NCBI GenBank assembly: GCA_027023265.1
Contig: JALVVV010000027.1
Location: 1-64,000, forward strand
Direction: 5' to 3'
Length of the DNA: 64,000 bases
Origin: DHVE2 group archaeon
Lineage (GTDB): Archaea > Thermoplasmatota > Thermoplasmata > Thermoplasmatales > Aciduliprofundaceae
Part shown: piece after piece, positions 27,649-46,382 of the stretch
How the letters are laid out: every line of letters begins with the position of its first letter
Numbering within the stretch: position 1 is the first letter of the stretch
Notes under the pieces: generated by a model
Database searches by the model: none
Seen by the model: only the letters and a program-made list of their open reading frames with translations
Told to the model about the DNA's origin: nothing
Translations under genes and position numbers: made by a program

Positions 27649-30600
27649 TTAATCAAACTTGAACTCCTGTCCACATACCTTACATTTTCCAATTCTCTTT
27701 GCGCATGGTAGGTGGTATGTAGCTCCGCAGTTGTCACACACGACCATATCCATCCCAGGGAGTATTGTTCCCCGGCACAAAGCGCACTTTTCCTTCTTTG
27801 TGGCTTTCTCAATGTGGTACCCTTTTTTCTCCTCTTCTTGTTCTTCCACCTCAAATTCTCTCGTAAGGTTGTATTCCTTCCCGTCAAATCTGTAATAAGT
27901 TAGAAATACGTTTATTTTATTGCCGTGTCCCTCTTTTAGATATACTTCCTGCTCGTCCATGGCTCCTCGCTCAATTTTAAGAATTTCTATGGGGTTGTCC
28001 GAGTAATATGCCCCTCTCACCATAACTTTTATGTTTTGCGCATCTGCCGTGCCTTTATTTCTCAAGCTTATTTTACCTACGTACCTGTCTCCGCTTTTAT
28101 CTTCAATTTCGATATCCACATCAATATCTGGCTCCAAAGCGTCAATCATGCTGTTAATTTTTGATTTCAAGTCCTCCAGCTCTAACTTGGCACCGCTCAT
28201 ATCTTTTGGTGCTTTTTCCTCTATTTCCTTAAGTTTTGAAATTAAATCACCCACTTTTAGCCCAAGAGATAGGGCAAATCTTAGCCTGTCTTTTGTTTCT
28301 TCTACCATTTTTCCAAATTCGTCCATGAATACGCGGTACTTTGCAACGAAGTCGTTTGCCTCTTTGTATATCCGTATTGCTTCTTCATAATTACCAACAG
28401 AGCGCATTTTTTCAATTCTTTTGGCGTAATCATCGGCAACCTCCTCGCTAAATTCACCTATTCTCTTGCTTATTTTGTCCCTCAGGCTCTTTACGTACTC
28501 GTCAAGGTACCTGTTAAAGCTCTCATCAACTTCCTGAAGCATCTTGTATATCTCTTCGTAATCTTTCTCCTCCATCATGGAAAGTATATCGTAGAGCTTT
28601 GAGTGGAACTCGTCTATGCTTACCCCGTATTTCTCGTATTTATCCAGTTTGTTTTTGAGAATTTCTATTTTCTTCTTAATGAGATTTGGCATCTGCTCAT
28701 CCATCTTGCTTTTTATGGTTGCAGCGTAGTCAAAGAACTTTGCATAATTGGATGCTTTCAATTTCCTCAATTCTATCTCCGCTTTTTCAAAATCTATGCC
28801 GAGATCTATGTTCATCTCCCTGAACAAACGCATTTTCTCCCTGAAATCCTTGAGAACGTTCTCGCTAACTTCTGCAAGTCTCCTGTCTATTGCCTTTTTC
28901 AACTCGCTTAACTTGACCTTAATCTTGTCGTAATCTCCCTCCTCGAATAGCTTTTCCATCTCACGCATATCGTCTTTGAATTCATCCTGAAGTCCAATTC
29001 TTACAACCAGCGTGGTCATTTTAGAGTATGCGCTCTTGTACTTGTTTACCGCATCAATCATGAGAAGTTTCGCTTCCTTGTAACACTTATCCACCAGTTT
29101 GAGTGATTCCGTGTAATTCATCTTTTTGAACTCTTCTTTTGCCTGGTTAAAAATAGCAAGTACCTCGGTCACGTCCATCCCTAAGCGATGTGCCTTCATG
29201 ACCATTTCTCTGATCTGCGTGTTCTTGTCTTTAATGTAGGCAATCATCCTTTCAATCTCCGAAATTCTGTCGCTAACGCGCATGGACCTCTCTATTGATT
29301 TTTCATAAAGCCCTTTCAAAAATAGCTTTTTAGAGTACTCGTAATCCGTGATGATGTCTTTTGGCAGTATTTTCTTCATAGCCGCGATTTTTACTTCCAG
29401 TCTCTTAAGTATGCCGTAAGCTGTGTTTTTCTGTATCTCGTACTTTTCTATCTCGCCCAAGGCGCTCATGGCTCTATTTAGCGCTTCCACGTATTCCTTC
29501 TCTTTCAAGCTTGATTTGGCCTTGTTGAGCATGTTTTCAGGGGCAGTCACATCTTCTCCGCGCCTGCGCATCCTGTCCAGCTCTTTTCCAACTTTTACTA
29601 TTATTGCATTTACTTTTTTGTGCAGCGCTTTTTCTATCTCATTAATTATTTTATTTGCCCGCTCCTCTGCCTCCCTTATGTTTGTCATCGATGATAACTC
29701 GTCCAGCTCTTTTTTGTAACCGGACACGTCTATTCCGAGGGATATTCCCATGTCTATGTATTTTTTGATTTTTGCAATGATAACTGTCATCTTTTCGTTT
29801 CTCTCGTACACTGATGCTATCTGCGTCTCAAGTTTTTTAAGTATGTAGAGGGCGTCCAAGTACCGTCTCTTTATGAAGAGGTCCTTTGCATTTTCCAAGT
29901 CTGCAAGGTTTATGTTCAGGTCGTATCCCTTCCCCTTTGCGTCGTATATATCCGTTTCAATTTTGCCAATGTAATCCGTGAGTATAGTTTCAACATGCTC
30001 TCTGAGCTCTGAAAGTATCTTTTCGCCTATCTCATAAAGGCCATCGTATTTCATATCTTCGTACTTAACGTAAAACTCGCGTGATTTTCTCTTGAACTCC
30101 CCTCCGAGTCCAAGCTCTCTCATAACCTTTCCTATCTCGTCCAGTTCCTTTCTGATATACTCTATTTTTGCCTTGTTTTCCATTGCGTTGGCTTTTTTGA
30201 TGCAGCTTATTGACAATTTCTCAGCATCTTCAAATTCATTCGCCTCAAACTTTCTTTTTGCCTCAACTAATGTTTTTGCCACTCCGGATACATCGGCACC
30301 CATATCCTTTAGCTTGGCCACCAGTTTTGCTGCATTTACCAACTGAGAGTACGCTTTCTCGGCTTTATCTCTCAGTTCTTTTGATAGTTCTTTAGCCTCG
30401 GAGGCGTATTTTATTGCATTTTTGTAGTCTTCTTTTTCTATGCTCTCTTTTGCCTTTTTAAGCAATCCCATTATGCGCTGTTTTCCTATATCCACACCTA
30501 TCCTCTTCGCAGCTGCAGCCACGATTTTTGCTGAATCAAAAGTATCTTTTGCAACCAAGCTTTCCAACTCTTTAAGTGCCTCCTTTCCCCTCTTTATAAA

Positions 30601-32436
30601 ATCTTCAGCTTTAACTATGTCTTTCTTTTTAAGGGCTACTTCTGCTCTCTCTATATATCCCAACACTTCTGTTACGTTACCGCCATTGTTCTGCAAAAAC
30701 TCAGCCTCGTCTTTCATCCTCTTGATTTCTGCTTTGAATTTCATACCCTCTATTTCAAAAGTTATGTCCCTTATTTTTGCAATATCTTTGAGTGCATTAT
30801 CAATATCCCCTTCAGAGAGCATTCTCCGTGCACTTGCTATTGTTCTATCAATCCTTTCATCTTTATAATTCTTTGTTTTATCTTCAATTTCTTTAAGGTA
30901 GTCTTCGGTTCTCTTGTAGATATCCTCTTCTATTTTTCTTAGGGATATTATTGCATCTTTGTAAGCCTCGTCCCCTATTTGAGTTTTAACATCGTTTAGT
31001 GCGAGCTTAACGTCATCTAATACAATGCCCTCGGACTCTGCATTTTCAATCATATTTTTTATGTCCCCGTAAAGAGATTGTGCAATATCACGCAAGCTGA
31101 GCTTTATGTTGGTTTTCAACTCGTTAAGCAATTTCTCTGCGTTTTCTGCATTTCTCTCGAGCTCCTCCTCTATGTTTTTAACGGACTCGTCCACACCCTC
31201 CAATATTATGTTTTCCATCTCCAAATCTTTTATTTCTTCCTTAATTCTTTCTATCTCTTTGTGAAGCTGGTTGTAAAGGTCAAGCTTTCTTTTCACAAGA
31301 TCAACAGTTTCTATGACTATATCGTATGCTCTCTTGTGTTTTCCAATCTTTAAAAAGTTCCTCGCACTATCTATCTTTTTCAGGAAAGGCGTTATGTCTA
31401 TTCCCCTTTCTTTAGCCTCAAGGAAGATTTCCCTTGCTTTTTTAATTTCATCCATTACTTTCTGGAATTTCTGTGTTTCTGCGATGCCCGTGGATTTCCT
31501 TATGAGATTAACAGCTTCTTCAATATCTCCCTCTTCGTATTTCTTCTTTGATTCTTCTAAATACTGCATGGGCTCCTCTATATCGATGCCCATCCCCTTG
31601 CCCTCTTCGGCAATCCTTTTGGCAATGTCAAGTAGCTTTTTGTAGAAGAAATCAAACGATTTCTTTGCATTTTCGAGGTAATCCATAGATGTTCTCAGAG
31701 CTCCTGTGTAATTGTTTCCCTCCAACAGTTCTTTTATTTTTGTTTCTGCGCTTTTATCTACAGGCAGGTTGAAGTGGGCGGATGCTGCAATATCTATTAT
31801 CTTTTGTGTCTTTTCAACATGCTCGTTGACCTTTTTCTTTATTTCATTCGTTGCTTTTTCTTTAAGTTCTAGTAGACTGTTAAGTGTTTCTGAGTCCGTT
31901 TTATCTCCAATTTTTTTTGCCTCCTCGGCTACCCATTCAAAGCCCTCTATTTTTCCTATAGCCTCAGTTAGCTCTCTATAAATGTGACCCACGCTCTCCT
32001 CCACAACCTCGCTAATCATTTCCCTAACCGACTTTAGGATTTCAAAGCTTTTTTCAGGCTCGTTTGCAATTTTATCTGCCCCTTCTCTTAATTTTGCCCT
32101 GATCTTAGCCGCTGTTTCTTCGCTTACATTGTTTAGTAAAGCTTCTATTTCCCTGCTTTCTTCGTCGTACAGTTCCTTTACCTTATTTGCCATCTCCTCA
32201 AGCAACGGCTCCAGGATTTCCAGAGCCGCATCCATGTCTTTCATTTCGTAGTATTTCTTTGCCTCATCGTATTTTTTGTGAAGCTCCTCCGCGTTTTCCA
32301 GATCTTTTAAAATTGAAAAATAATCGTTTATAGTGGCCATTAATTTATCGCATTTTTCCTTTTTTTCCTGAAGGGCACGCGCCTTTTTCTCTAACTCTTT
32401 CTCTAATTTTAGCCGGCTAAGGTATGGAGATGGCAA
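27649..32436 (-). CDS. 1595-aa helical-repeat protein (about 22 x about 62 aa) with C-terminal beta domain and RING/PHD-like zinc finger
   Basis: Recurrent [LIR]G-x-D/xVxx...LxxAKxxF...dYxxA pattern; C-x2-C-x12-C-x2-C-x4-H-x2-C-x6-C-x2-C at the C-terminus. Confidence 0.85.
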   Translation of the reverse strand: MPSPYLSRLKLEKELEKKARALQEKKEKCDKLMATINDYFSILKDLENAEELHKKYDEAKKYYEMKDMDAALEILEPLLEEMANKVKELYDEESREIEALLNNVSEETAAKIRAKLREGADKIANEPEKSFEILKSVREMISEVVEESVGHIYRELTEAIGKIEGFEWVAEEAKKIGDKTDSETLNSLLELKEKATNEIKKKVNEHVEKTQKIIDIAASAHFNLPVDKSAETKIKELLEGNNYTGALRTSMDYLENAKKSFDFFYKKLLDIAKRIAEEGKGMGIDIEEPMQYLEESKKKYEEGDIEEAVNLIRKSTGIAETQKFQKVMDEIKKAREIFLEAKERGIDITPFLKKIDSARNFLKIGKHKRAYDIVIETVDLVKRKLDLYNQLHKEIERIKEEIKDLEMENIILEGVDESVKNIEEELERNAENAEKLLNELKTNIKLSLRDIAQSLYGDIKNMIENAESEGIVLDDVKLALNDVKTQIGDEAYKDAIISLRKIEEDIYKRTEDYLKEIEDKTKNYKDERIDRTIASARRMLSEGDIDNALKDIAKIRDITFEIEGMKFKAEIKRMKDEAEFLQNNGGNVTEVLGYIERAEVALKKKDIVKAEDFIKRGKEALKELESLVAKDTFDSAKIVAAAAKRIGVDIGKQRIMGLLKKAKESIEKEDYKNAIKYASEAKELSKELRDKAEKAYSQLVNAAKLVAKLKDMGADVSGVAKTLVEAKRKFEANEFEDAEKLSISCIKKANAMENKAKIEYIRKELDEIGKVMRELGLGGEFKRKSREFYVKYEDMKYDGLYEIGEKILSELREHVETILTDYIGKIETDIYDAKGKGYDLNINLADLENAKDLFIKRRYLDALYILKKLETQIASVYERNEKMTVIIAKIKKYIDMGISLGIDVSGYKKELDELSSMTNIREAEERANKIINEIEKALHKKVNAIIVKVGKELDRMRRRGEDVTAPENMLNKAKSSLKEKEYVEALNRAMSALGEIEKYEIQKNTAYGILKRLEVKIAAMKKILPKDIITDYEYSKKLFLKGLYEKSIERSMRVSDRISEIERMIAYIKDKNTQIREMVMKAHRLGMDVTEVLAIFNQAKEEFKKMNYTESLKLVDKCYKEAKLLMIDAVNKYKSAYSKMTTLVVRIGLQDEFKDDMREMEKLFEEGDYDKIKVKLSELKKAIDRRLAEVSENVLKDFREKMRLFREMNIDLGIDFEKAEIELRKLKASNYAKFFDYAATIKSKMDEQMPNLIKKKIEILKNKLDKYEKYGVSIDEFHSKLYDILSMMEEKDYEEIYKMLQEVDESFNRYLDEYVKSLRDKISKRIGEFSEEVADDYAKRIEKMRSVGNYEEAIRIYKEANDFVAKYRVFMDEFGKMVEETKDRLRFALSLGLKVGDLISKLKEIEEKAPKDMSGAKLELEDLKSKINSMIDALEPDIDVDIEIEDKSGDRYVGKISLRNKGTADAQNIKVMVRGAYYSDNPIEILKIERGAMDEQEVYLKEGHGNKINVFLTYYRFDGKEYNLTREFEVEEQEEEKKGYHIEKATKKEKCALCRGTILPGMDMVVCDNCGATYHLPCAKRIGKCKVCGQEFKFD

Positions 32437-35890: not shown

Positions 35891-35895
35891 TTCCG

Positions 35896-35909
35896 AACTT
35901 TCGGAGTTA
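35896..35909 (+). promoter_or_regulatory. Putative operator AACTTTCGGAGTTA next to the TATA box TATAAATATA of the 35943 gene
   Basis: Exact 14-nt match to the reverse complement of 42229..42242; contains AACT-N5-AGTT, and CCGAA-CT-TTCGG overlaps it. Confidence 0.6.
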
Positions 35910-35942
35910 TAAATATATACTACCTTCCCTAATTTTTCAACC

Positions 35943-37049
35943 ATGAACGAAGCTGTACTGCCTGTTGGATATTTAAACACGCACATGCTATGCAGATGGC
36001 GTTTTCTGCTGGGTGATAATGTGGATTCAGAAAAGGGATCGAATGATGTTCTGAATGAGGTACTGAAAACAGATTTGTCATCAACTTGGATTTTGACAGG
36101 TATTAGAAGTGGCCTTTACGTCCTTTCCGAGGTTGAAATTTCTGATGCAGATTCAAAAACTCAAGCTTTGCATTTGCACGTTGATGGGCGCGAATACTAC
36201 GAAGATGGGGAATGGCCGTCGCTGCAGGGATTGGGGGTCCTCTCTGAATGGGGTGTGCATGCCGCTCTGGCAGCAATCGTGGCAGGGGGCATAGAAGATG
36301 CCAGACGTGGCCGGTGCTGTGGAAATGAATATGCAGAGTATATAAACAGCAGAATTAAGGACAGTTACGAAATTTACGTGAATGGTGTTCCTTATCCTCT
36401 GTTTGAGTCTGCGGTGTTATTGCTTACTATAATCACCTCTGTTAGGTGTGTGTTAGAAGAAAGAAATGAGTATTTTTTCGATACAGATTACAGGGGTATG
36501 TGCAACACATGCCCATTTGCAGCTCACTGTGATGTGCCTTTAACTGGCGGTTCTATAATGGAATCTAACAAATACGCTCTTAAAACAGGGTCTTCTTTTG
36601 CGATGTACTTGGATGGCTTGCATGGTTATGGGTGGTACATGCTGTACCGTGCCGCTGTGCGATATTTGGGATACAGAACTAAAAGCTTGAAAAGGGCAAT
36701 TCGCTCGGCAATGGTCGAAGTTTATGGAAAAGATTATCGAGACATCGAGTTTAACAGCAATGATTTAAAACCGTATTTTGAAGAGGACAAAAAACTTAAC
36801 ATGGTAGAGGTAGACCAATTGGCATTCGATGCGCGAGAAATTCTGGAGAATGGCGAGTATCTGGTCAGTTACGAGCATTTTATGACCTCTCCTATGACAA
36901 AAGAACTCGTGAAGCGCGGATATTTCAGAGTTACTGCCTTGGAAGAAGGTGAAGTGGAAGAATTGGATAATGATAAAGATAACCGGTATTTTGTTTTGGT
37001 TCCCGGAAAATCTTTTCTTAAAAGGGTGTGGGGTGATGCAATTGATTGA
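35943..37049 (+). CDS. Uncharacterised protein with Cas4-like Fe-S cysteine pattern
   Basis: N-terminal LNTHMLCRWRFLL and C-x2-C-x5-C (CNTCPFAAHC); separate C-terminal domain. Confidence 0.8.
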   Translation: MNEAVLPVGYLNTHMLCRWRFLLGDNVDSEKGSNDVLNEVLKTDLSSTWILTGIRSGLYVLSEVEISDADSKTQALHLHVDGREYYEDGEWPSLQGLGVLSEWGVHAALAAIVAGGIEDARRGRCCGNEYAEYINSRIKDSYEIYVNGVPYPLFESAVLLLTIITSVRCVLEERNEYFFDTDYRGMCNTCPFAAHCDVPLTGGSIMESNKYALKTGSSFAMYLDGLHGYGWYMLYRAAVRYLGYRTKSLKRAIRSAMVEVYGKDYRDIEFNSNDLKPYFEEDKKLNMVEVDQLAFDAREILENGEYLVSYEHFMTSPMTKELVKRGYFRVTALEEGEVEELDNDKDNRYFVLVPGKSFLKRVWGDAID

Positions 37050-37608
37050 AGATGATGAGCTGCCTGAGATAGATATAGATGATGACGGTGATTTCTACGT
37101 GGAAGACGAGGATGAAGGAGAAAGTAAAGAAAATTGCTATCTTATTTTCTATCCTTTGTTCATATTGCACAATTTTCCTCCTGTATTTAACCCACTTGGT
37201 GACTCTGGTGATTTCCTTTACGGCGAGCTGGTTTTGAGCACACCGTACACGTTTTTTGGTATTTGTATGGACGCACAAAATAAAGGATACCGGACACTTT
37301 ACGAGATAACAAAAAACATGGACGTTTTCAAGCGAAAGTACATTTTGGAGGTTTTAAGATGCATATTGTATGGAGAAGAATGTACCCGTGCAGATGTATG
37401 CGCTCGTCTTACGTTGTCTCTAAACATAAAGATAGCAAGGGAAATGTGCAGGGACGCATTTGAAAACGATTTTTTGGAGGAATATATGGAAGAGGTGAAA
37501 GGCTACCTTATCCCCGGTAAAAAGTTTTTGAGAATGCTTTTTGAAAATGATGGAGAGCTTTTATATATGGGGTGGAAGCTGTACCTTGAAAGTAAAGGGA
37601 GGACTTAG
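37036..37608 (+). CDS. Uncharacterised protein with hyperacidic N-terminus
   Basis: MQLIEDDELPEIDIDDDGDFYVEDEDEGES; 14-nt overlap with upstream gene; ends GYLIPGKKFLRMLF, similar to VLVPGKSFLKRVW of the upstream protein. Confidence 0.75.
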   Translation: MQLIEDDELPEIDIDDDGDFYVEDEDEGESKENCYLIFYPLFILHNFPPVFNPLGDSGDFLYGELVLSTPYTFFGICMDAQNKGYRTLYEITKNMDVFKRKYILEVLRCILYGEECTRADVCARLTLSLNIKIAREMCRDAFENDFLEEYMEEVKGYLIPGKKFLRMLFENDGELLYMGWKLYLESKGRT

Positions 37609-37666
37609 AGAATGCACTGTTGTGAAAATCGGAAAATTGTTTAGAGGAAGAAGCAGGTATGTAGAG

Positions 37667-38419
37667 TTACAGGGAGTTTAGCAGGGCCAGAAGAGTTCTT
37701 CCTCTCTTTGTTAGCATTACCGTTCCATTCTCCATTTTTATCAGTTCTCTCTTTTTAAAGCTGTTTATAATCTTTTCCGCGTCAATATCATCGGCTCCAT
37801 TTTTCATTATTATTTTTTTAGCATTTTCATAGTTTATTGGTTTTGCAAACGCGATGAGATGCTTCTCGTATTCCACGTCTTTCACGTGAGCTTTTATGTT
37901 TATTACAGGCAGGTCAGATATCTTTCTCTCCGCGTGATACGGATAAAGAAATATAGTCTTGCACGCTCTTTCTCCAGCTTCCTTTATTATGTTTAGCAGA
38001 CCCACGTATATTGCGAGGGAGCCTATTTTGTGCCCGCCGCTAAGGTTCGCGTATATCCGGACAGTTCCTCTTGATTTTGCGTACTTTTCCAGTTCGTTTT
38101 TCACCTGCTTTTTCGTATCTTCAAAAGAGGTCAGATCAGCTTTTATCATTTTCACCTTGGTTCCTGAATCTTTGAGGAAGTCCATGGGTGCAGTGACCAT
38201 TTTTTTAAAAGCTTCTCTCTCATCATCTTCTAAATTTTCCAACTTCTGTTGAATATTATCTACATCGGTGAAAACATATACTACGTTAACCTCTCCGGCA
38301 TGCTTGAGCCCAAGCCCGAATTTATGCGCTTCCTCTTTGTTGAGCAACTTTCTGTACTCGCTATCATATTCGTATATGGTCAAACTCGTTACGTGTATAT
38401 TTGTTTCTTCTTTACTCAT
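37667..38419 (-). CDS. CARF-like domain protein with C-terminal wHTH
   Basis: IYANLSGGHKIGSLAIYVGLL CARF-type motif; C-terminal winged-helix-like segment. Confidence 0.78.
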   Translation of the reverse strand: MSKEETNIHVTSLTIYEYDSEYRKLLNKEEAHKFGLGLKHAGEVNVVYVFTDVDNIQQKLENLEDDEREAFKKMVTAPMDFLKDSGTKVKMIKADLTSFEDTKKQVKNELEKYAKSRGTVRIYANLSGGHKIGSLAIYVGLLNIIKEAGERACKTIFLYPYHAERKISDLPVINIKAHVKDVEYEKHLIAFAKPINYENAKKIIMKNGADDIDAEKIINSFKKRELIKMENGTVMLTKRGRTLLALLNSL

Positions 38420-39089
38420 TTTCTTCGCCCTCCAAAAAGAACCATGCTCCAGACTTCAGGGAGTAGTACCCTCTATTTTTTTCCTTTCTCTCAAATATCA
38501 GGTTCCTGCATACAAGCTTGCTCTTTGCCTCGCTAAATCCAGATGGGGATATCTTTCTTCCAGTAATCCTTTCTATCTCTTCTTTTATGGTTTCTGCAGG
38601 TAGTTCATCATTTTGATTTTTTAGCACTTCAAGTATGAGCTTCATCACGTTTTTATTCTTTTTTTTGTTTTTTTTAAGTCCCATGTCCATTTCATCTATT
38701 GCCAGAGCTATTCTCTTGATATCGTATTTTCCTTCTTTGGTCACCACGTATATCACGGGAATTTCTCCGTTTGTTCTGTCTCCGTAAGTTGCAAGTAGTG
38801 CCAGTGCAAAGGACATAATCTTGGTGCCTCCAGTTATATTTGCCACTCCATCCTCAGTTAGTTCCGGCCTGATTTTTTCTATACAGTCTTCCAGAGAGAA
38901 AGGGTCGACTTCAATGAATTTTGGGGGAATTGGTGACTCTTTTCTAATTTTTTCCATGGCCTCTTCCACACTCTCTTCTGCGTCTTTATCACCTATCCCG
39001 TAGAATATTACCACTTCATCCGGTTTGAGTTTCTTTATTGGATACAAAACCACATTTGCGCTCCACCCCATTGTAGACAGAAGTCTCAC
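38412..39089 (-). CDS. CARF-wHTH protein (Csa3-like)
   Basis: STMGWSANVVLYPIKKLKPDEVVIFYG and VANITGGTKIMSFALALLATY; C-terminal wHTH-like segment. Confidence 0.85.
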   Translation of the reverse strand: MRLLSTMGWSANVVLYPIKKLKPDEVVIFYGIGDKDAEESVEEAMEKIRKESPIPPKFIEVDPFSLEDCIEKIRPELTEDGVANITGGTKIMSFALALLATYGDRTNGEIPVIYVVTKEGKYDIKRIALAIDEMDMGLKKNKKKNKNVMKLILEVLKNQNDELPAETIKEEIERITGRKISPSGFSEAKSKLVCRNLIFERKEKNRGYYSLKSGAWFFLEGEENE

Positions 39090-39098
39090 GGTATCACC

Positions 39099-39677
39099 TC
39101 ATATTTTAACGGGTACCTTAAACTTTCCGAGGTTTATATCTTTTGTGCCGTGTTTCATGCGCAGGTAAATGAAATATATGCTGAAAAGGTGGTCCAGGTA
39201 CTTTTGAGCGACTATTCTCTGAGTTCCGCGGGGCGTGGGTCTTATAAATAGCATGCTTTTTGACAATCCCGATATGCTTCCTGCTGAAAGTGTCTCCATG
39301 ACGGTTTCGTCTCTTGGAGGAATTGGGAAAAACACATCGGAGAATACATTCAGGTCGTAGCCGGCGGTGTACACATGCTTTCCACGGACTTTATCTGCAA
39401 TCTCTTTAACCCATTTTTTTGATGTAGCCCCACTCATAAAGTATGATTTAGTCCCCTCGCTTGTTATCAGGGATATTACGTAATTGTCTTCTTCTGTATT
39501 GCTTCTAAATGCAACCATGGCCATTACTACATCGTTTGCGTCTGTTGTGGGGAATTTCCACGAAATAGTTCTGTCACTTGGGGAAGTCACGCTTTCAGTG
39601 GCAGCATCCACGGTTATTCCCTTTTCAGCACCTATCTCTTCCTCCAACTCACCTGCCAATTCTTTAATGTTTTTCAC
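39099..39677 (-). CDS. Conserved-looking protein of unknown function in the CARF/MoxR/VWA operon
   Basis: 192 aa ORF, 4-nt overlap with the VWA gene. Confidence 0.75.
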   Translation of the reverse strand: MKNIKELAGELEEEIGAEKGITVDAATESVTSPSDRTISWKFPTTDANDVVMAMVAFRSNTEEDNYVISLITSEGTKSYFMSGATSKKWVKEIADKVRGKHVYTAGYDLNVFSDVFFPIPPRDETVMETLSAGSISGLSKSMLFIRPTPRGTQRIVAQKYLDHLFSIYFIYLRMKHGTKDINLGKFKVPVKI

Positions 39678-41098
39678 AAAATCACCTCCTCTTTACTTTT
39701 AACAATCAAATCTTCTGGGGAAATCACGTAGTATCTGTCCAAATTGCAAATCCATTCTGCAAAGCTCTTGCCGTTTTCTTTTATTATAAACACAACCTTG
39801 TTAACCGTTTTAAGCTCTTCCATCACGCTATCTTTATCAGATATGTACGAATCGGTGAATATGTATATTTTATCAAAATCTAATGTAAGTGCTTTGTTTA
39901 ATGCGGGTTCAAGTCTCGTTCCTCCTCCGGGTATGATTCTAATTAACAGCTCCTCTATTTCTTCGTATTTATCTGTGGGATATATTACGTATCTCTCCAT
40001 GATATCTCCTGAAAAAGGAATGAACCCTATTTTCACGCCCGTATTTTTCAATTTTTTTAGTATGTTGAGTATTGCAATTTGCGCGGCAGTGAATTTTTTT
40101 CCTAACATGGAGCCACTACAATCCAAAATAATACCTAAGGCGTTAATTCCATAATTACCTCTTTTTGCAATCTCTTTTGATATAGCAGTCAGGTCCGGAA
40201 TTATTATGCCGTTGCTTTCTATGCTTTTTAAGCTTTGCAGTTTTCTGGGGTCATCTTCGGTGCTCCATATCCCATTCTCGTATCCGTGGTTCCTTCCAAG
40301 CTCGTGCCTGTCTATTTCCACTTTTATGTTCATTAGAACATCTGCTATGTACCTCGGGTTCGAGCTAACTTCAAATACGTTGGCGGTACCGGGGATTCTG
40401 CCTGTGCCATTGATTTCGTCTACTTCTTTAAGGATAACTGGATCGAATCCATTTCTTTCCAGCTCTCTGATTACCCGAGCCTCGTTAACGCTGTTGATTC
40501 TGATTACGCTAATCCCGTGTGGCACTTTTTTGAATTTTGAGGGAAAGAATCTTTTTAATATCTCATACGCCTTGTAAACCCTCGTGTAAAAATCAATATC
40601 TCCGTTAAACAGCACGCCGTGCAGTTTTTGCCCCATGGGATAGTCTTTCATTTTAGTGTTCAATCCTAGGATTTTAGCATGGGTGGCGTAAACGGATGCC
40701 ATCAGTTGCAGAACAGGAACCTTGGTAGATGCAAGGTATTTCTCAAGAAATTCAAGGTACTCCTTTCCGTGAATTGTGATTAGCGTTGTATCCACCAAGA
40801 GATCAGATACTATGTTTACCACGTCCATTGGCTCAGGTAACCCCATGCTTTTTGCCATGTAGAGCATGGTTTCTCCGATGAGCGGGTCTTTTGGGTTTAT
40901 GAAAAGGTGCCCGTACTCGTGTCTTAGCATGTTTTTCATCGTGCTCTCTTTTTTTTCTTTTTTTGCCATTTCTACCGGTATATTTACCGTGTTCCAGTTA
41001 AAATTTGGTGCTGTGTCCTCTGTGAATCTGAGAGGAAGCACGCTGCCATATTCCTTCCCCACCTCATCGTTTATTCTCAGAATGTCGCTGTCATTCAT
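39674..41098 (-). CDS. VWA-domain protein with N-terminal metallopeptidase-like HEYGH motif (DUF2201-like architecture)
   Basis: LRHEYGHLFINP; MIDAS ILDCSGSM, PGGGTRL, IFTDSYISD. Confidence 0.85.
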   Translation of the reverse strand: MNDSDILRINDEVGKEYGSVLPLRFTEDTAPNFNWNTVNIPVEMAKKEKKESTMKNMLRHEYGHLFINPKDPLIGETMLYMAKSMGLPEPMDVVNIVSDLLVDTTLITIHGKEYLEFLEKYLASTKVPVLQLMASVYATHAKILGLNTKMKDYPMGQKLHGVLFNGDIDFYTRVYKAYEILKRFFPSKFKKVPHGISVIRINSVNEARVIRELERNGFDPVILKEVDEINGTGRIPGTANVFEVSSNPRYIADVLMNIKVEIDRHELGRNHGYENGIWSTEDDPRKLQSLKSIESNGIIIPDLTAISKEIAKRGNYGINALGIILDCSGSMLGKKFTAAQIAILNILKKLKNTGVKIGFIPFSGDIMERYVIYPTDKYEEIEELLIRIIPGGGTRLEPALNKALTLDFDKIYIFTDSYISDKDSVMEELKTVNKVVFIIKENGKSFAEWICNLDRYYVISPEDLIVKSKEEVIL

Positions 41099-42197
41099 CT
41101 AACTCACCTATAAAACTCAGCGTGCGCTCATCTTTTCTGGCAGATTCTTTATCACCGCGCAGAGCCGGGAGCCAGACCGTTTTTAATCTTATCTTTGCGT
41201 TTTTCAGTGTTTCGTTTACCCATTCCTCTTTTGAAGAATAGAGTGCCCTGAGCCTTTCGTGAGTTTGAATCCTGTGCTGCAACACGTACTTTGCAGCAAA
41301 AAACACGTCATCGGAGCTCACTTCATTTCTTCCATCGTAGTACGCCTTGGCCTTGGCAACTCTCAACGCGTCTTTCCACCACCTGTGCCCGAGGGGCTCT
41401 TTGAGCATTGCGCATGGCTCGGTGCGGTACCTGCAGGATTCGCAAGTGTGCGCTATATACCTGTAATCCATAACTGCCTTGTCCCCGTATATGCAGTTTG
41501 TCATGTACCCGTGAATCAGCGTTAGCAGGAGATGCTGTTTCTCTGGCACGGCCACGGAATTCACTTCATTCCATATCATGCTCATCTCTCTGGGCGTCAT
41601 CACCTTCTTCACTTTGTTGAGTTCTACTGGTTTGCTCATCATCTCCAACATTTTATTCCCTGGAACAGTTCTCATGTTCACGCTTGCGGTTATTCTGTCC
41701 ATGAGAGCAGCAGGCACTTCCACCGAGCCGGAATCAAATGGATTTGCATCTAAAATAGCCACGTAATCCTTCGTTTTGAATTTTGTATCTCTAATTGTAA
41801 CAAATCCCTCTTCAAACAGCCCTAAAAATGTGTTGTATATTCTATGATTTCCCCTCTGAAACTCGTTTACAAATTTGAACGGAGCAGTTACAATATCTCG
41901 TGGTGCTATTTTTTCCTCGCCTTTTATGAGCCTGGCAACGTCTATTTTAAAAAACACGTCATTTACGCTGAGTTCGTTCATAAGCTGCACTACCGGCATG
42001 TTTTCCTCGCTGTACCCGAAAAACACCCTTCCTGTGAGGTACGCGTACAGGGATTTTCCGAACCCGTATGGCCCTAAGAGCAGAAATTTGCCGTTTCTAA
42101 CCAGCGGTGCGATTTTGAGAAGCTCACCGTTATCGTCGAAGGTGTACCATCTTTCAATCTCCTCAATGCCTTTTTTGTACTTGTTTAAGAGGTTCAT
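41091..42197 (-). CDS. MoxR-like AAA+ ATPase
   Basis: Walker A GPYGFGKS, sensor-region DYVAILDANPFDSG, CESCRYRTEPC insert; 8-nt overlap with the VWA gene. Confidence 0.85.
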   Translation of the reverse strand: MNLLNKYKKGIEEIERWYTFDDNGELLKIAPLVRNGKFLLLGPYGFGKSLYAYLTGRVFFGYSEENMPVVQLMNELSVNDVFFKIDVARLIKGEEKIAPRDIVTAPFKFVNEFQRGNHRIYNTFLGLFEEGFVTIRDTKFKTKDYVAILDANPFDSGSVEVPAALMDRITASVNMRTVPGNKMLEMMSKPVELNKVKKVMTPREMSMIWNEVNSVAVPEKQHLLLTLIHGYMTNCIYGDKAVMDYRYIAHTCESCRYRTEPCAMLKEPLGHRWWKDALRVAKAKAYYDGRNEVSSDDVFFAAKYVLQHRIQTHERLRALYSSKEEWVNETLKNAKIRLKTVWLPALRGDKESARKDERTLSFIGELDE

Positions 42198-42228
42198 GTA
42201 TTCTAATACAACTGGTTTAAGGTGTAAT

Positions 42229-42242
42229 TAACTCCGAAAGTT
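42229..42242 (-). promoter_or_regulatory. Putative operator AACTTTCGGAGTTA downstream of a TATTTAAAT box, upstream of the MoxR-VWA-CARF operon
   Basis: Exact 14-nt match to 35896..35909 on the opposite strand. Confidence 0.6.
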
Positions 42243-42261
42243 TTGCTTTTGATTTAAATAC

Positions 42262-42772: not shown

Positions 42773-44956
42773 TCAAAAATGCCTTTTAATCGCTATGGCT
42801 GCAATCATGAATAGTATAACTATCCATATTGCAGAAAGCTCCGGGATATCTGAGCCGGGAGTTACCTGTATCTCGTTGCTTGGGGTGCTTTCCTCATTCA
42901 CACCCACTGCTGTTACGTAGTACATGTATGTTTGCCCTGACACCACGCTCGTATCATTGAACCACAGCCTCGTAGCGTTCACCTCTGCAATTTCATTTCC
43001 GTTTCTGTATATCCTGTATCCTGTTATTTCAGAAACCCCGTATTTCGGAGGCTGCCATGTGATGTTTACATAATTAGAACCTGCTTTTGCTCTCAGATAA
43101 AGAGGGTGCGTTAAGACGTTATCTGTGGAAGCGTTTTTCAAAGGATAGTAATCTTTTCCTTTTGCGCTGCCCCCCACGTGGTATGGCCAGTCCACGATGC
43201 TATCGTTATTACGGTCGTTGGTGTTGTTGTTATTTGCCCAGTCGTACCAGTAATTACCTATGCCGTACGTGCTGTTCCACAAGTTTCCGTAGCCATCGTC
43301 CCATGCCTGTATCCTTGAGTCGTTGTAGGTTCCATTTGACCGGTTATTGTAGTAAAAATAGTTCAGGTAAATTTGATTCCCACTTCCACTTTCTATTACA
43401 ACCCCGTACATATTGCATTCTTCTATGATGTTTCCTTCCAGTATGTTGTTATTGGCATAGTTTATAACTGTACCATTGCCGCAGTTATCTATGGTGTTAT
43501 TTATGATGGTGTTTTCCGTGGATGATTCTATGTATATCCCGGATTCATTCGCATATTTTATCGTGTTGACTCGTATGTTATTTGAAGAGGAGTGCCATTG
43601 AATGCCAATCCCGTATTCGATGAGGTATATTTTATTGTTAATGATGGAATTATTTTCGGAGTATCCATATGCCTTTATACCGTATTGCGCAAATGATATG
43701 CTGTTGTTCAAAATCACGTTTCTCTGCGATTCATCTATCTTTATGCCGTAATTTGAGGTGTTGTTAATTTGAGAATTTTCAACTAAATTATTTTCCGTGT
43801 TTTTCAGGTATATGCCTCCTGCTGAGCAATTCGCTATGCTGTTGTTTGCAATTTCGTTTTCTCTGCCTCCGCTTACTATGATTCCCTCTTGGTTTCTCAT
43901 TACGGTGTTATTTGCAATTATATTTTCAGAGGCACCGTATATCCATATTCCAGAGGAGTCGTTTATAAGCCTGTTCCCTGTTACCGTGTTGTTGTTTGAT
44001 TCGTTGAGATATATTCCCGAGAACGTGCAGTTTTGTATGGAGTTTCCAGAAATCAGGTCTGAATTTGAAAATATGGTGTAAATGGCGCCTGAATCTCCAT
44101 TGAACGTGTTGTTTATTATTTTGGAGTTATTCAGGTTAAATGTAAGTATGCCGTAGCTCATATTTGAAAATTTACTGTTTTTGACTGTTATGTTTGAAGA
44201 ATATCCCGCAATTATTCCCACAGTGATTCCGCTCATGTTTACGGATGATACTGTCAGGCTGGTGACGTTTCCCAATATCAGTTCTCCGTAGGTGTTTGGT
44301 ATTTCACTACCTATATTTACATTTTTAATATAATAGATGCTGTTGCCATTTAAAGTGTTGTTTACCGGTATATTTTGGGTGGTAAACGTCTTTTTATCTC
44401 CCCACAGTGCAAGGCTGTTGTTCTGCAATACTGTTCCGTAAATGCTGTTGTTGTACGAGTACGACACGAGAACTCCATAATTTCCGTTGTCTTTTACGGA
44501 GTTGTCTATTAGCGTGTTATTTCTTCCCATGTCTATCCATATCCCATACGCGCTGTTATGCTCCGAAGTCACGTTTTTTACAGTTCCATTTTCTACATTG
44601 TACAGCATTATTCCCGAGCCACCGCTGTAAGGCCAGGACATAAACGATGCGTTGGATACGGAGCAGTTTTCTATCACGAAATGCAGTGTGGTGTTGCCTA
44701 TAAAAATTCCGTACCCGTACCCTGCGGCGTTAATTGTATACCCAGATATTATGTATGGATTTTCGGCGCTCCCGTTACCTGCCCATCCTTGGTCTTCAGC
44801 AATTCTTACCATCTCCGAGTTATCATTTATTTTTATTGGTTGTTGTGTGGTTTTGAAATTATCATCTCCGGCAGCAAGAGCAGTAAATGAGCTGTTTATT
44901 AGCACTCCCAAAATCAATGCTCCTATAACGAGCACCTTTATTTTCCCCTTTGCCAT
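42773..44956 (-). CDS. Secreted right-handed beta-helix (NosD-like) protein with Fn3 domain and C-terminal TM
   Basis: Many N-x-[IV]-x-x-N-x-[IV] parallel beta-helix repeats; Fn3 region; C-terminal TM; start MAKGKIKVLVIGALILG preferred. Confidence 0.88.
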   Translation of the reverse strand: MAKGKIKVLVIGALILGVLINSSFTALAAGDDNFKTTQQPIKINDNSEMVRIAEDQGWAGNGSAENPYIISGYTINAAGYGYGIFIGNTTLHFVIENCSVSNASFMSWPYSGGSGIMLYNVENGTVKNVTSEHNSAYGIWIDMGRNNTLIDNSVKDNGNYGVLVSYSYNNSIYGTVLQNNSLALWGDKKTFTTQNIPVNNTLNGNSIYYIKNVNIGSEIPNTYGELILGNVTSLTVSSVNMSGITVGIIAGYSSNITVKNSKFSNMSYGILTFNLNNSKIINNTFNGDSGAIYTIFSNSDLISGNSIQNCTFSGIYLNESNNNTVTGNRLINDSSGIWIYGASENIIANNTVMRNQEGIIVSGGRENEIANNSIANCSAGGIYLKNTENNLVENSQINNTSNYGIKIDESQRNVILNNSISFAQYGIKAYGYSENNSIINNKIYLIEYGIGIQWHSSSNNIRVNTIKYANESGIYIESSTENTIINNTIDNCGNGTVINYANNNILEGNIIEECNMYGVVIESGSGNQIYLNYFYYNNRSNGTYNDSRIQAWDDGYGNLWNSTYGIGNYWYDWANNNNTNDRNNDSIVDWPYHVGGSAKGKDYYPLKNASTDNVLTHPLYLRAKAGSNYVNITWQPPKYGVSEITGYRIYRNGNEIAEVNATRLWFNDTSVVSGQTYMYYVTAVGVNEESTPSNEIQVTPGSDIPELSAIWIVILFMIAAIAIKRHF

Positions 44957-45047
44957 GCTTTTTCCATATCTTTCACTGGTTAATATTTTTTGCCATGGGA
45001 ATTGCGTTACGTATATCGTTATATACCCGTGGGCTTTTATTGTCTCA

Positions 45048-46382
45048 ATGCCCCTCCGCGCCCTGACCATCCTTGTTATCCTGCTTGTAATTTCCTCGCT
45101 TTTAGTTTCGGTGAATGCTTCTGTGGAGGTGAAATCTTACGTGGAATACTCGGAAATATGGGACAATAGCCATGGGGGGAGAATATACTGGTTCATAGAG
45201 GGAAGAGAGGCTCAAATTCTTAAGAAAGCACTTGCTAAAAATTACGATTTTGATCATGATGGAATCATGGAAATGGACGAGGTTGTTAGTTACTTTCACG
45301 TTCTGCTTTCTCTTCTGAATAACCAGCACGTTGGCACTGTTATCGTATCCACTGCCGCGCCGTTGCATGGCTGGAAAAACGGAGGTGTTGATTACCGCGA
45401 TGTTCAGGGATTGCCCGGTTCTTTGAAGACTAACTTCTCCATAAACATATCCGTAAAATTTTCAGGAAAAGCAGTCTCAGGTGGGAATACAAATGGCTAT
45501 AATCTCTCTCTAATACCTTTTGCAGCTGCTACCCGTAGCAGTATTGCAAACTGTTCCGTTCATCTGAACGCTCGTGAGGAGCACACCGAAATAGGTGCTA
45601 CCTTTTGCGGATATGGTGTAGAATCCGCGCAGGTGGTCATGCGATTGGGATTTGGTTCTTTTTACTACCGTTCTGGGACTGCAAAAAATTGTCCTGTTAC
45701 AAAGCAGAGCAACTCAATTTTGGATAGTCCTTTGTTTCTCTTGGTATCCTTGCTCGTGGTTGTTAAAATTGGAGATTACTTTGTTAGCAAAAGCTTGTAT
45801 AAATCTTCCGAAAAATGTTTCTCTCGAACTAATCAACGTAAAATTAGAAAAGCGGGGCTATCTTTAAAAATTATTTTTGCAGTGCTGTATATTTTTCCCA
45901 AGTTTTACTTTTTCCACATTAGTTCTTTTCTTTTCCTCATAATGGTGGTTGTATATCCTTTTTTGGTGTTTTTAACTTTAAAATATTTTATGAATGGTTC
46001 ATGCAGAGGACCCCACTACGATGGGAGAATCCTGGGTGTATTAATACTGGATAGAAACGGTTCCTTGATTTTTAGCAAAAGCTGTTCTTCTTACGACAAT
46101 TGGGAATTAGATGATGTGTTTTCTCACATCTCTTCTATTAGGGGAAGTGCTGGCGTAGATTATGACGTTATTCTCGAGACAGGTGATAAAAAATTTGTTG
46201 CAAGATATGCTAAAGATATTACTGTGATACTTATTTTGGAAGGGGAATTGAGACAACACGTAACTGAAAAAATTGAAAATCTTCTTGAGAAAATCGTAGA
46301 TGAATGCGAAAAGCAACCCATGTTAAAGGGAGATTATTACTCTTCTTGCTTGGAGAATTTGTTGGAAAGCATATGCGAGTGA
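45048..46382 (+). CDS. Secreted/membrane protein with signal peptide, extracellular domain, TMs and cytoplasmic C-terminal domain
   Basis: MPLRALTILVILLVISSLLVSVNA signal peptide at the in-frame ATG 45048; hydrophobic segments mid-protein. Confidence 0.7.
   Translation: MPLRALTILVILLVISSLLVSVNASVEVKSYVEYSEIWDNSHGGRIYWFIEGREAQILKKALAKNYDFDHDGIMEMDEVVSYFHVLLSLLNNQHVGTVIVSTAAPLHGWKNGGVDYRDVQGLPGSLKTNFSINISVKFSGKAVSGGNTNGYNLSLIPFAAATRSSIANCSVHLNAREEHTEIGATFCGYGVESAQVVMRLGFGSFYYRSGTAKNCPVTKQSNSILDSPLFLLVSLLVVVKIGDYFVSKSLYKSSEKCFSRTNQRKIRKAGLSLKIIFAVLYIFPKFYFFHISSFLFLIMVVVYPFLVFLTLKYFMNGSCRGPHYDGRILGVLILDRNGSLIFSKSCSSYDNWELDDVFSHISSIRGSAGVDYDVILETGDKKFVARYAKDITVILILEGELRQHVTEKIENLLEKIVDECEKQPMLKGDYYSSCLENLLESICE

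Follow-up and report, generated by a model that had tools for sequence, protein, structure and literature searches.

A CARF regulator pair shares a promoter element with a MoxR-VWA gene module and a type I-B cas operon in DHVE2 group archaea

CARF proteins are usually explained by the cyclic oligoadenylates of type III CRISPR systems. In the DHVE2 group of deep-sea, heat-loving archaea, a conserved pair of CARF genes persists in a family in which 16 of 18 genomes give no match to Cas10, and at the locus described here the pair is joined to genes for a MoxR-type AAA+ ATPase and a VWA protein. This raises the questions of what CARF regulators sense without Cas10, and whether archaea attach AAA+ remodelling modules to CRISPR immunity. 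The window, i.e., the whole 64-kb stretch of DNA that was analysed (contig C27:1-64000), belongs to a host genome of 1.64 Mb that is 99.5% complete and whose GTDB relatives bear the title DHVE2 group archaea. The comparison set consisted of 18 family genomes, of which G011 (1,486,778 bases) and G013 are complete. The seven ORFs of the original prediction were all present where it had placed them, and the locus contains the following features:

35896..35909, plus strand: shared promoter element AACTTTCGGAGTTA (exact match), immediately 5' of a TATA-like run and of gene A
35943..37049, plus strand: gene A, 368 aa, four-cysteine protein with Cas4-like spacing and a likely C-terminal winged helix (invariant cysteines; homology to G011)
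37036..37608, plus strand: gene B, small acidic protein (adjoins A in four other genomes; C-terminal likeness to B' of G011)
37667..38419, minus strand: gene C, CARF-like winged-helix protein with invariant N-x-S-x-GHK, in the window NLSGGHKIG (PADLOC CARF models; invariant residues)
38412..39089, minus strand: gene D, CARF winged-helix protein with invariant NITGGTK, in the window NITGGTKIM (Pfam CARF_Card1; PADLOC; PDB matches)
39099..39677, minus strand: gene E, 192 aa, third gene of the core operon (syntenic homologues)
39674..41098, minus strand: gene F, N-terminal HExxH domain (predicted zincin-like) and C-terminal VWA domain with intact MIDAS (Pfam VWA_2; alignment; AF2)
41091..42197, minus strand: gene G, MoxR-type AAA+ ATPase (Pfam AAA_5 and lid; PDB 2r44; alignment)
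42229..42242, minus strand: shared promoter element AACTTTCGGAGTTA 5' of the G-F-E-D-C operon (exact match; kept in the genomes of relatives)

The minus-strand genes are transcribed in the order G-F-E-D-C, with neighbours that overlap by 4-8 nt or are separated by a 9-nt gap, and the plus-strand pair A-B is convergent with this operon. The mechanical ORF of gene B begins at 36949 (36949-37608), and the ATG at 37036 is the likelier start. Chance ORFs can be excluded, because the seven-gene set is conserved across species. Elsewhere in the window, a gene for a 1595-aa coiled-coil-rich protein with a C-terminal cysteine-rich zinc-ribbon or RING-like domain (27649-32436) adjoins an FtsZ-like gene. 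Two long ORFs on opposite strands, 42773-45070 (minus) and 44652-46382 (plus), overlap at 44652-45070, and the true start of the latter is probably further downstream.

The two regulators, D and C, combine an N-terminal CARF domain with a C-terminal winged helix, which is the architecture of Csa3, less clearly recognizable in C. For D, the predicted CARF-wHTH identity is borne out by Pfam CARF_Card1 above cut-off, by a full-length match to the PADLOC CARF3 model PDLC01872 (E 2.8e-45), and by PDB matches of its profile to Can2 and a ring nuclease. The CARF-like identity of C stands less firmly: PADLOC CARF models were matched down to E 4.6e-8, weaker than for D, and Pfam CARF remained below cut-off. 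Regulation of archaeal cas operons is the known role of the CARF-wHTH proteins Csa3a and Csa3b (PMC8844856, PMC7480081), which D and C resemble in joining CARF and winged helix in CRISPR-bearing archaea. However, the window proteins score below the Csa3 cut-offs, i.e., 25.6 bits against 60.2 for TIGR01884 and 17.3-19.2 against 27 for Csa3_N, which is passed by D of G011 at 34.2. Unlike Csa3, moreover, D and C are always two dissimilar adjacent proteins, mostly without Cas10 and linked to a MoxR-VWA module. Two other genomes of the Thermoplasmatota also have a tandem CARF-wHTH pair, which there converges on a gene of the histone-deacetylase family (L131:8377-10720, L134:7843-10206). G010 and G007 each have an additional short (140 aa) CARF-like ORF (L161:6055-7508, L162:181-603), which in G010 adjoins a PIN-domain gene.

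In the original prediction, a nucleotide signal sensed by these CARF proteins controls the VWA/metallopeptidase effector; in a type III-style reading of it, cyclic oligoadenylate made by Cas10 would bind them and activate a MoxR-VWA/metallopeptidase effector. Such an ancillary system would agree with the membership of D and C in the CARF family and with the situation in G011, where the distance between a Cas10 gene and the CARF pair with the module is about 11 kb, but the distribution of Cas10 speaks against it. No cas genes were seen within the 64-kb window; the host has two type I-B CRISPR-Cas loci elsewhere, and its 99.5% complete genome yielded no Cas10 with PF22335, a model that a divergent Cas10 could escape. 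A check of the family for co-occurrence of the CARF genes with Cas10 gave matches to PF22335 in two of the 18 genomes (G002 and G011) versus 16 for D. Genomes without Cas10, the complete G013 among them, thus keep the CARF pair, and a type III cyclic oligoadenylate of the cell's own making is unlikely to be the ligand in the host, for which Cas10-derived type III signalling was rejected, and a type III-style ancillary is the least probable of the explanations weighed here, with small odds in its favour. In G002 and G011, Cas10 belongs to type III loci (L160, L137) that have their own CARF-like ancillary genes and are distinct from D-C.

A link to CRISPR of another kind is provided by the promoters. 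Within the window, the 14-bp element AACTTTCGGAGTTA has two exact copies, one 5' of A and the other 5' of G. Related elements are found in other species at the promoters of G and A, and in four genomes, namely G011 and three that lack G-F-E, at that of D. Its degenerate form, AAYKTTCGGAGTKA, has three exact matches in the whole host genome, and the third marks the promoter of cas6-cas8b-cas7-cas5-cas3-cas4-cas1, an operon at one of the two type I-B loci; this form was picked after the cas6 site was known and is thus not independent evidence. With a matrix trained on the G and A promoters only, about 178 kb of the host genome was scanned (356,132 positions, 156 promoters). The cas6 operon promoter ranked third of all positions, behind the two training sites themselves, and third of the 156 promoters, and the site is as far from the start codon as the training sites are. 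The same cas6 promoter site is present in G002, and in G013 a D-promoter matrix placed its own D promoter first and the promoter of cas4-cas1-cas2 second. As with Csa3, the element at the cas promoters is located immediately 5' of a TATA-like run. The shared element ties both cluster operons together and to the type I-B cas operon. The regulon is at most small, because the genome-wide count of the element with one mismatch was no higher than that of a reversed-pattern control, and because neither the second type I-B operon nor several further cas promoters have it. In G011, the promoters of cas10, the beta-lactamase gene and the homologue of A (A') gave weak element-like matches only. The element could also belong to a factor other than D and C.

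The order G-F-E-D-C is kept in G001, G002, G003, G006, and G007, and is split over two contigs in G005, so that, with the host, seven genomes of one genus share it; in G006, gene D (L015:1835-3271) is split by a frameshift or an assembly error. Wherever data exist, A-B is convergent with C, except in G007, where A-B is on another contig and adjoins the gene for tryptophanyl-tRNA synthetase, a gene that lies apart from the CARF pair in other genera. In G011, A'-B'-G-F-E forms a single overlapping operon divergent from D-C, and in G008, G-F-E is found on a short contig and a fragment of D on another. The CARF genes are thus syntenic with MoxR and VWA in other genomes, as the original prediction required, and a functional unit is indicated because the linkage is kept through rearrangement. 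D is present in 16 of the 18 family genomes and F in nine, five genomes (G013, G009, G015, G016, and G012) have D-C without G-F-E, and the D+C tree calls for two to three gains or losses of the module. The CARF pair is therefore the resident part and the MoxR/VWA/E module the accessory part.

At the CARF locus, G015 is a near twin of G011, and the A'-B'-G-F-E side of G011 has no counterpart in it. The distance from C to the beta-lactamase gene is about 50 bp in G015 versus 4.4 kb in G011, where Mre11-like and Rad50-like genes are found 3' of D-C (L021:1510-5270), a difference that represents an insertion or deletion. In the module-free genomes, a beta-lactamase-fold gene (Lactamase_B_2 and RMMBL) is convergent with C, one gene further away in G009; such genes near the CARF pair are located at L126:6885-8549, L127:12560-14128, L156:10754-12316, L157:3622-5130, and L158:400-1902. 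In another family, a distantly related gene (L130:2883-4274) and a CARF gene overlap.

A pair that is near-universal in the family and that, without G/F/E, adjoins metabolic and beta-lactamase-fold genes might be an old general regulator without any tie to immunity, and G-F-E a lineage-specific stress chaperone under it. IMG/VR yielded no copy of F, G or D, and plasmids yielded none of F, which suits such a housekeeping role; the patchiness of the module and the element at cas operons in two genera do not, and the role is considered unlikely. Two further possibilities were rejected: a viral or plasmid mobile origin on the same IMG/VR and plasmid results, and a wide distribution of G-F-E, as one scan of GTDB with F was confined to MAGs of the DHVE2 family, with matches outside the family (at phylum level) that span the VWA domain alone, or the AAA core or lid.

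The machine encoded by the accessory module was predicted to consist of a MoxR-like ATPase and a VWA protein with an HEYGH motif, and both parts were recovered. G matched Pfam AAA_5 and AAA_lid_2 above cut-off and PDB 2r44 (E 7.8e-17); its alignment revealed a Walker B motif in which NE replaces DE, and four invariant cysteines (C235, C252, C255, and C262). F matched Pfam VWA_2 above cut-off and VWA structures at the fold level (E 5e-6), its AF2 model (pLDDT 71) has a confident VWA fold, and the Pfam DUF2201 VWA model remained below cut-off (16.8 vs 26.4). In eight homologues, HE[YF]GH, the downstream residues N95, D99, and D103, and the MIDAS residues are invariant. The HExxH half matched no Pfam peptidase family in any of eight members, and the designation of F as a metallopeptidase therefore stays a motif-level prediction. 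For E, no family was matched in domain or PADLOC searches, and these gave no domain for B either.

With a MoxR AAA+ gene beside a VWA gene and with P-loop and MIDAS intact, G and F are a MoxR-VWA gene pair. Such pairs remodel or mature their clients, and metal insertion is known among them (PMC9976466, PMC13036017). NorQD, RavA-ViaA, CbbQO, and CoxDE likewise consist of overlapping genes for a MoxR ATPase and a VWA/MIDAS partner, but here the VWA partner has an N-terminal HExxH domain, the MoxR protein has a cysteine insert and the NE Walker B, and CARF regulators are inside the operon. A conserved cassette with MoxR and VWA is also found in the MoxR-vWA ternary conflict systems (Kaur et al. 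2020, PMC7159879); the present locus differs in that CARF regulators take the place of a VMAP-type third component. No VMAP match was obtained among the searched proteins, and G scored 24.7 bits against the bpMoxR model, below its cut-off of 27. Among CoCoNuT type IV restriction systems, some type III-A forms encode an ATPase together with VWA and CARF proteins (PMC11090510), whereas the locus described here is without McrB/McrC, coiled-coil nuclease, and TerY-P triad; Pfam and PADLOC searches of the seven proteins gave no match to the McrB GTPase or the McrC nuclease. What is new is thus the combination of parts: in the literature searched, no paper except those on CoCoNuTs joins CARF, MoxR, and VWA, the 2020 CARF census (PMC7498327) being outside this coverage, and MoxR, VWA, and Aciduliprofundum are all absent from the 2014 paper on CARF.

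The plus-strand pair A-B may supply a client for this machine. A had been described as a Cas4-like Fe-S protein, of which the four-cysteine spacing stands: C17 and C187xxC190PFxxxC196 are invariant in five genomes, and the spacing C...CxxCxFxxxC is that of the Cas4 family, a likeness of spacing alone with a cluster that is only predicted. In contrast to Cas4, A has no evident PD-(D/E)XK residues, and neither Pfam nor the Cas4 family matched the window protein, whose low-confidence AF2 model (pLDDT 66) has no PDB match; Cas4-like therefore denotes a resemblance of motif. Its homologue A' (hhalign probability 95.7%), the first gene of the G011 operon, matched Cas4 in PADLOC at E 0.02. The C-terminus of B resembles that of B', and a direct comparison of the profiles of A and B found no relationship.

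Because the cysteine proteins A and B are co-transcribed, cofactor maturation has to be taken as a serious rival. Like NorQD or CoxDE, G, F, and E would act on the co-regulated A/B by loading or maturing a metal or Fe-S site in them, and the CARF pair would be a regulator of stress or nucleotide state whose control of CRISPR is incidental. The four invariant cysteines in each of A and G, the single overlapping operon A'-B'-G-F-E of G011, and the metal insertion by known MoxR-VWA pairs all fit, but the conserved cysteine cluster of B' is absent from B in the genus of the host and the element at cas promoters is left unexplained, so that this account, too, is judged rather unlikely.

The preferred reading, to which a probability of about 0.45 is given, is that a Csa3-like two-protein CARF regulator may co-control type I-B CRISPR and a MoxR-VWA remodelling or maturation machine. 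It is favoured because Csa3 regulates cas operons and MoxR-VWA pairs remodel or mature clients. The seven genes would be one regulon, with an accessory module of G, F, E, A, and B under the resident D-C. D and C, probably as a pair, would bind the AACTTTCGGAGTTA-type element, may respond to a nucleotide ligand, and would regulate the operon that encodes them along with A-B and the type I-B CRISPR-Cas operon. Upon activation, the products of G and F would assemble into a remodelling complex, in which VWA/MIDAS may grip a client and then mature a metal or Fe-S site, or disassemble or cleave the client; the likeliest clients would be A/B, or an invader or CRISPR complex. Of the CARF-controlled MoxR/VWA island originally proposed, the conserved island and its CARF linkage stand, with added support from the shared promoter element, but direct control of the effector by the CARF proteins is less likely than transcriptional control because these proteins carry winged helices. 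Gene content, operon structure, conservation, and the shared promoter element are read from the genome sequences themselves, and the binding of the element by D and C, the ligand, the client, and a defence role are inferred. The system seems to be a hitherto undescribed accessory of CRISPR immunity that does without the usual type III signal maker.

More tentatively, a Cas10-independent two-subunit CARF regulator might govern an exchangeable effector module in concert with type I-B CRISPR-Cas, as a CRISPR-linked defence regulon. The exchangeable module would be MoxR-VWA-E with the cysteine proteins A/B, and in G011 also the Mre11-Rad50-like pair, and the regulator would sense a nucleotide signal from a source other than Cas10. 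Lastly, a second Cas1 of G011 (L214:5359-11385) adjoins a large gene of polymerase size, which fits a casposon, an element that is reportedly present in A. boonei.
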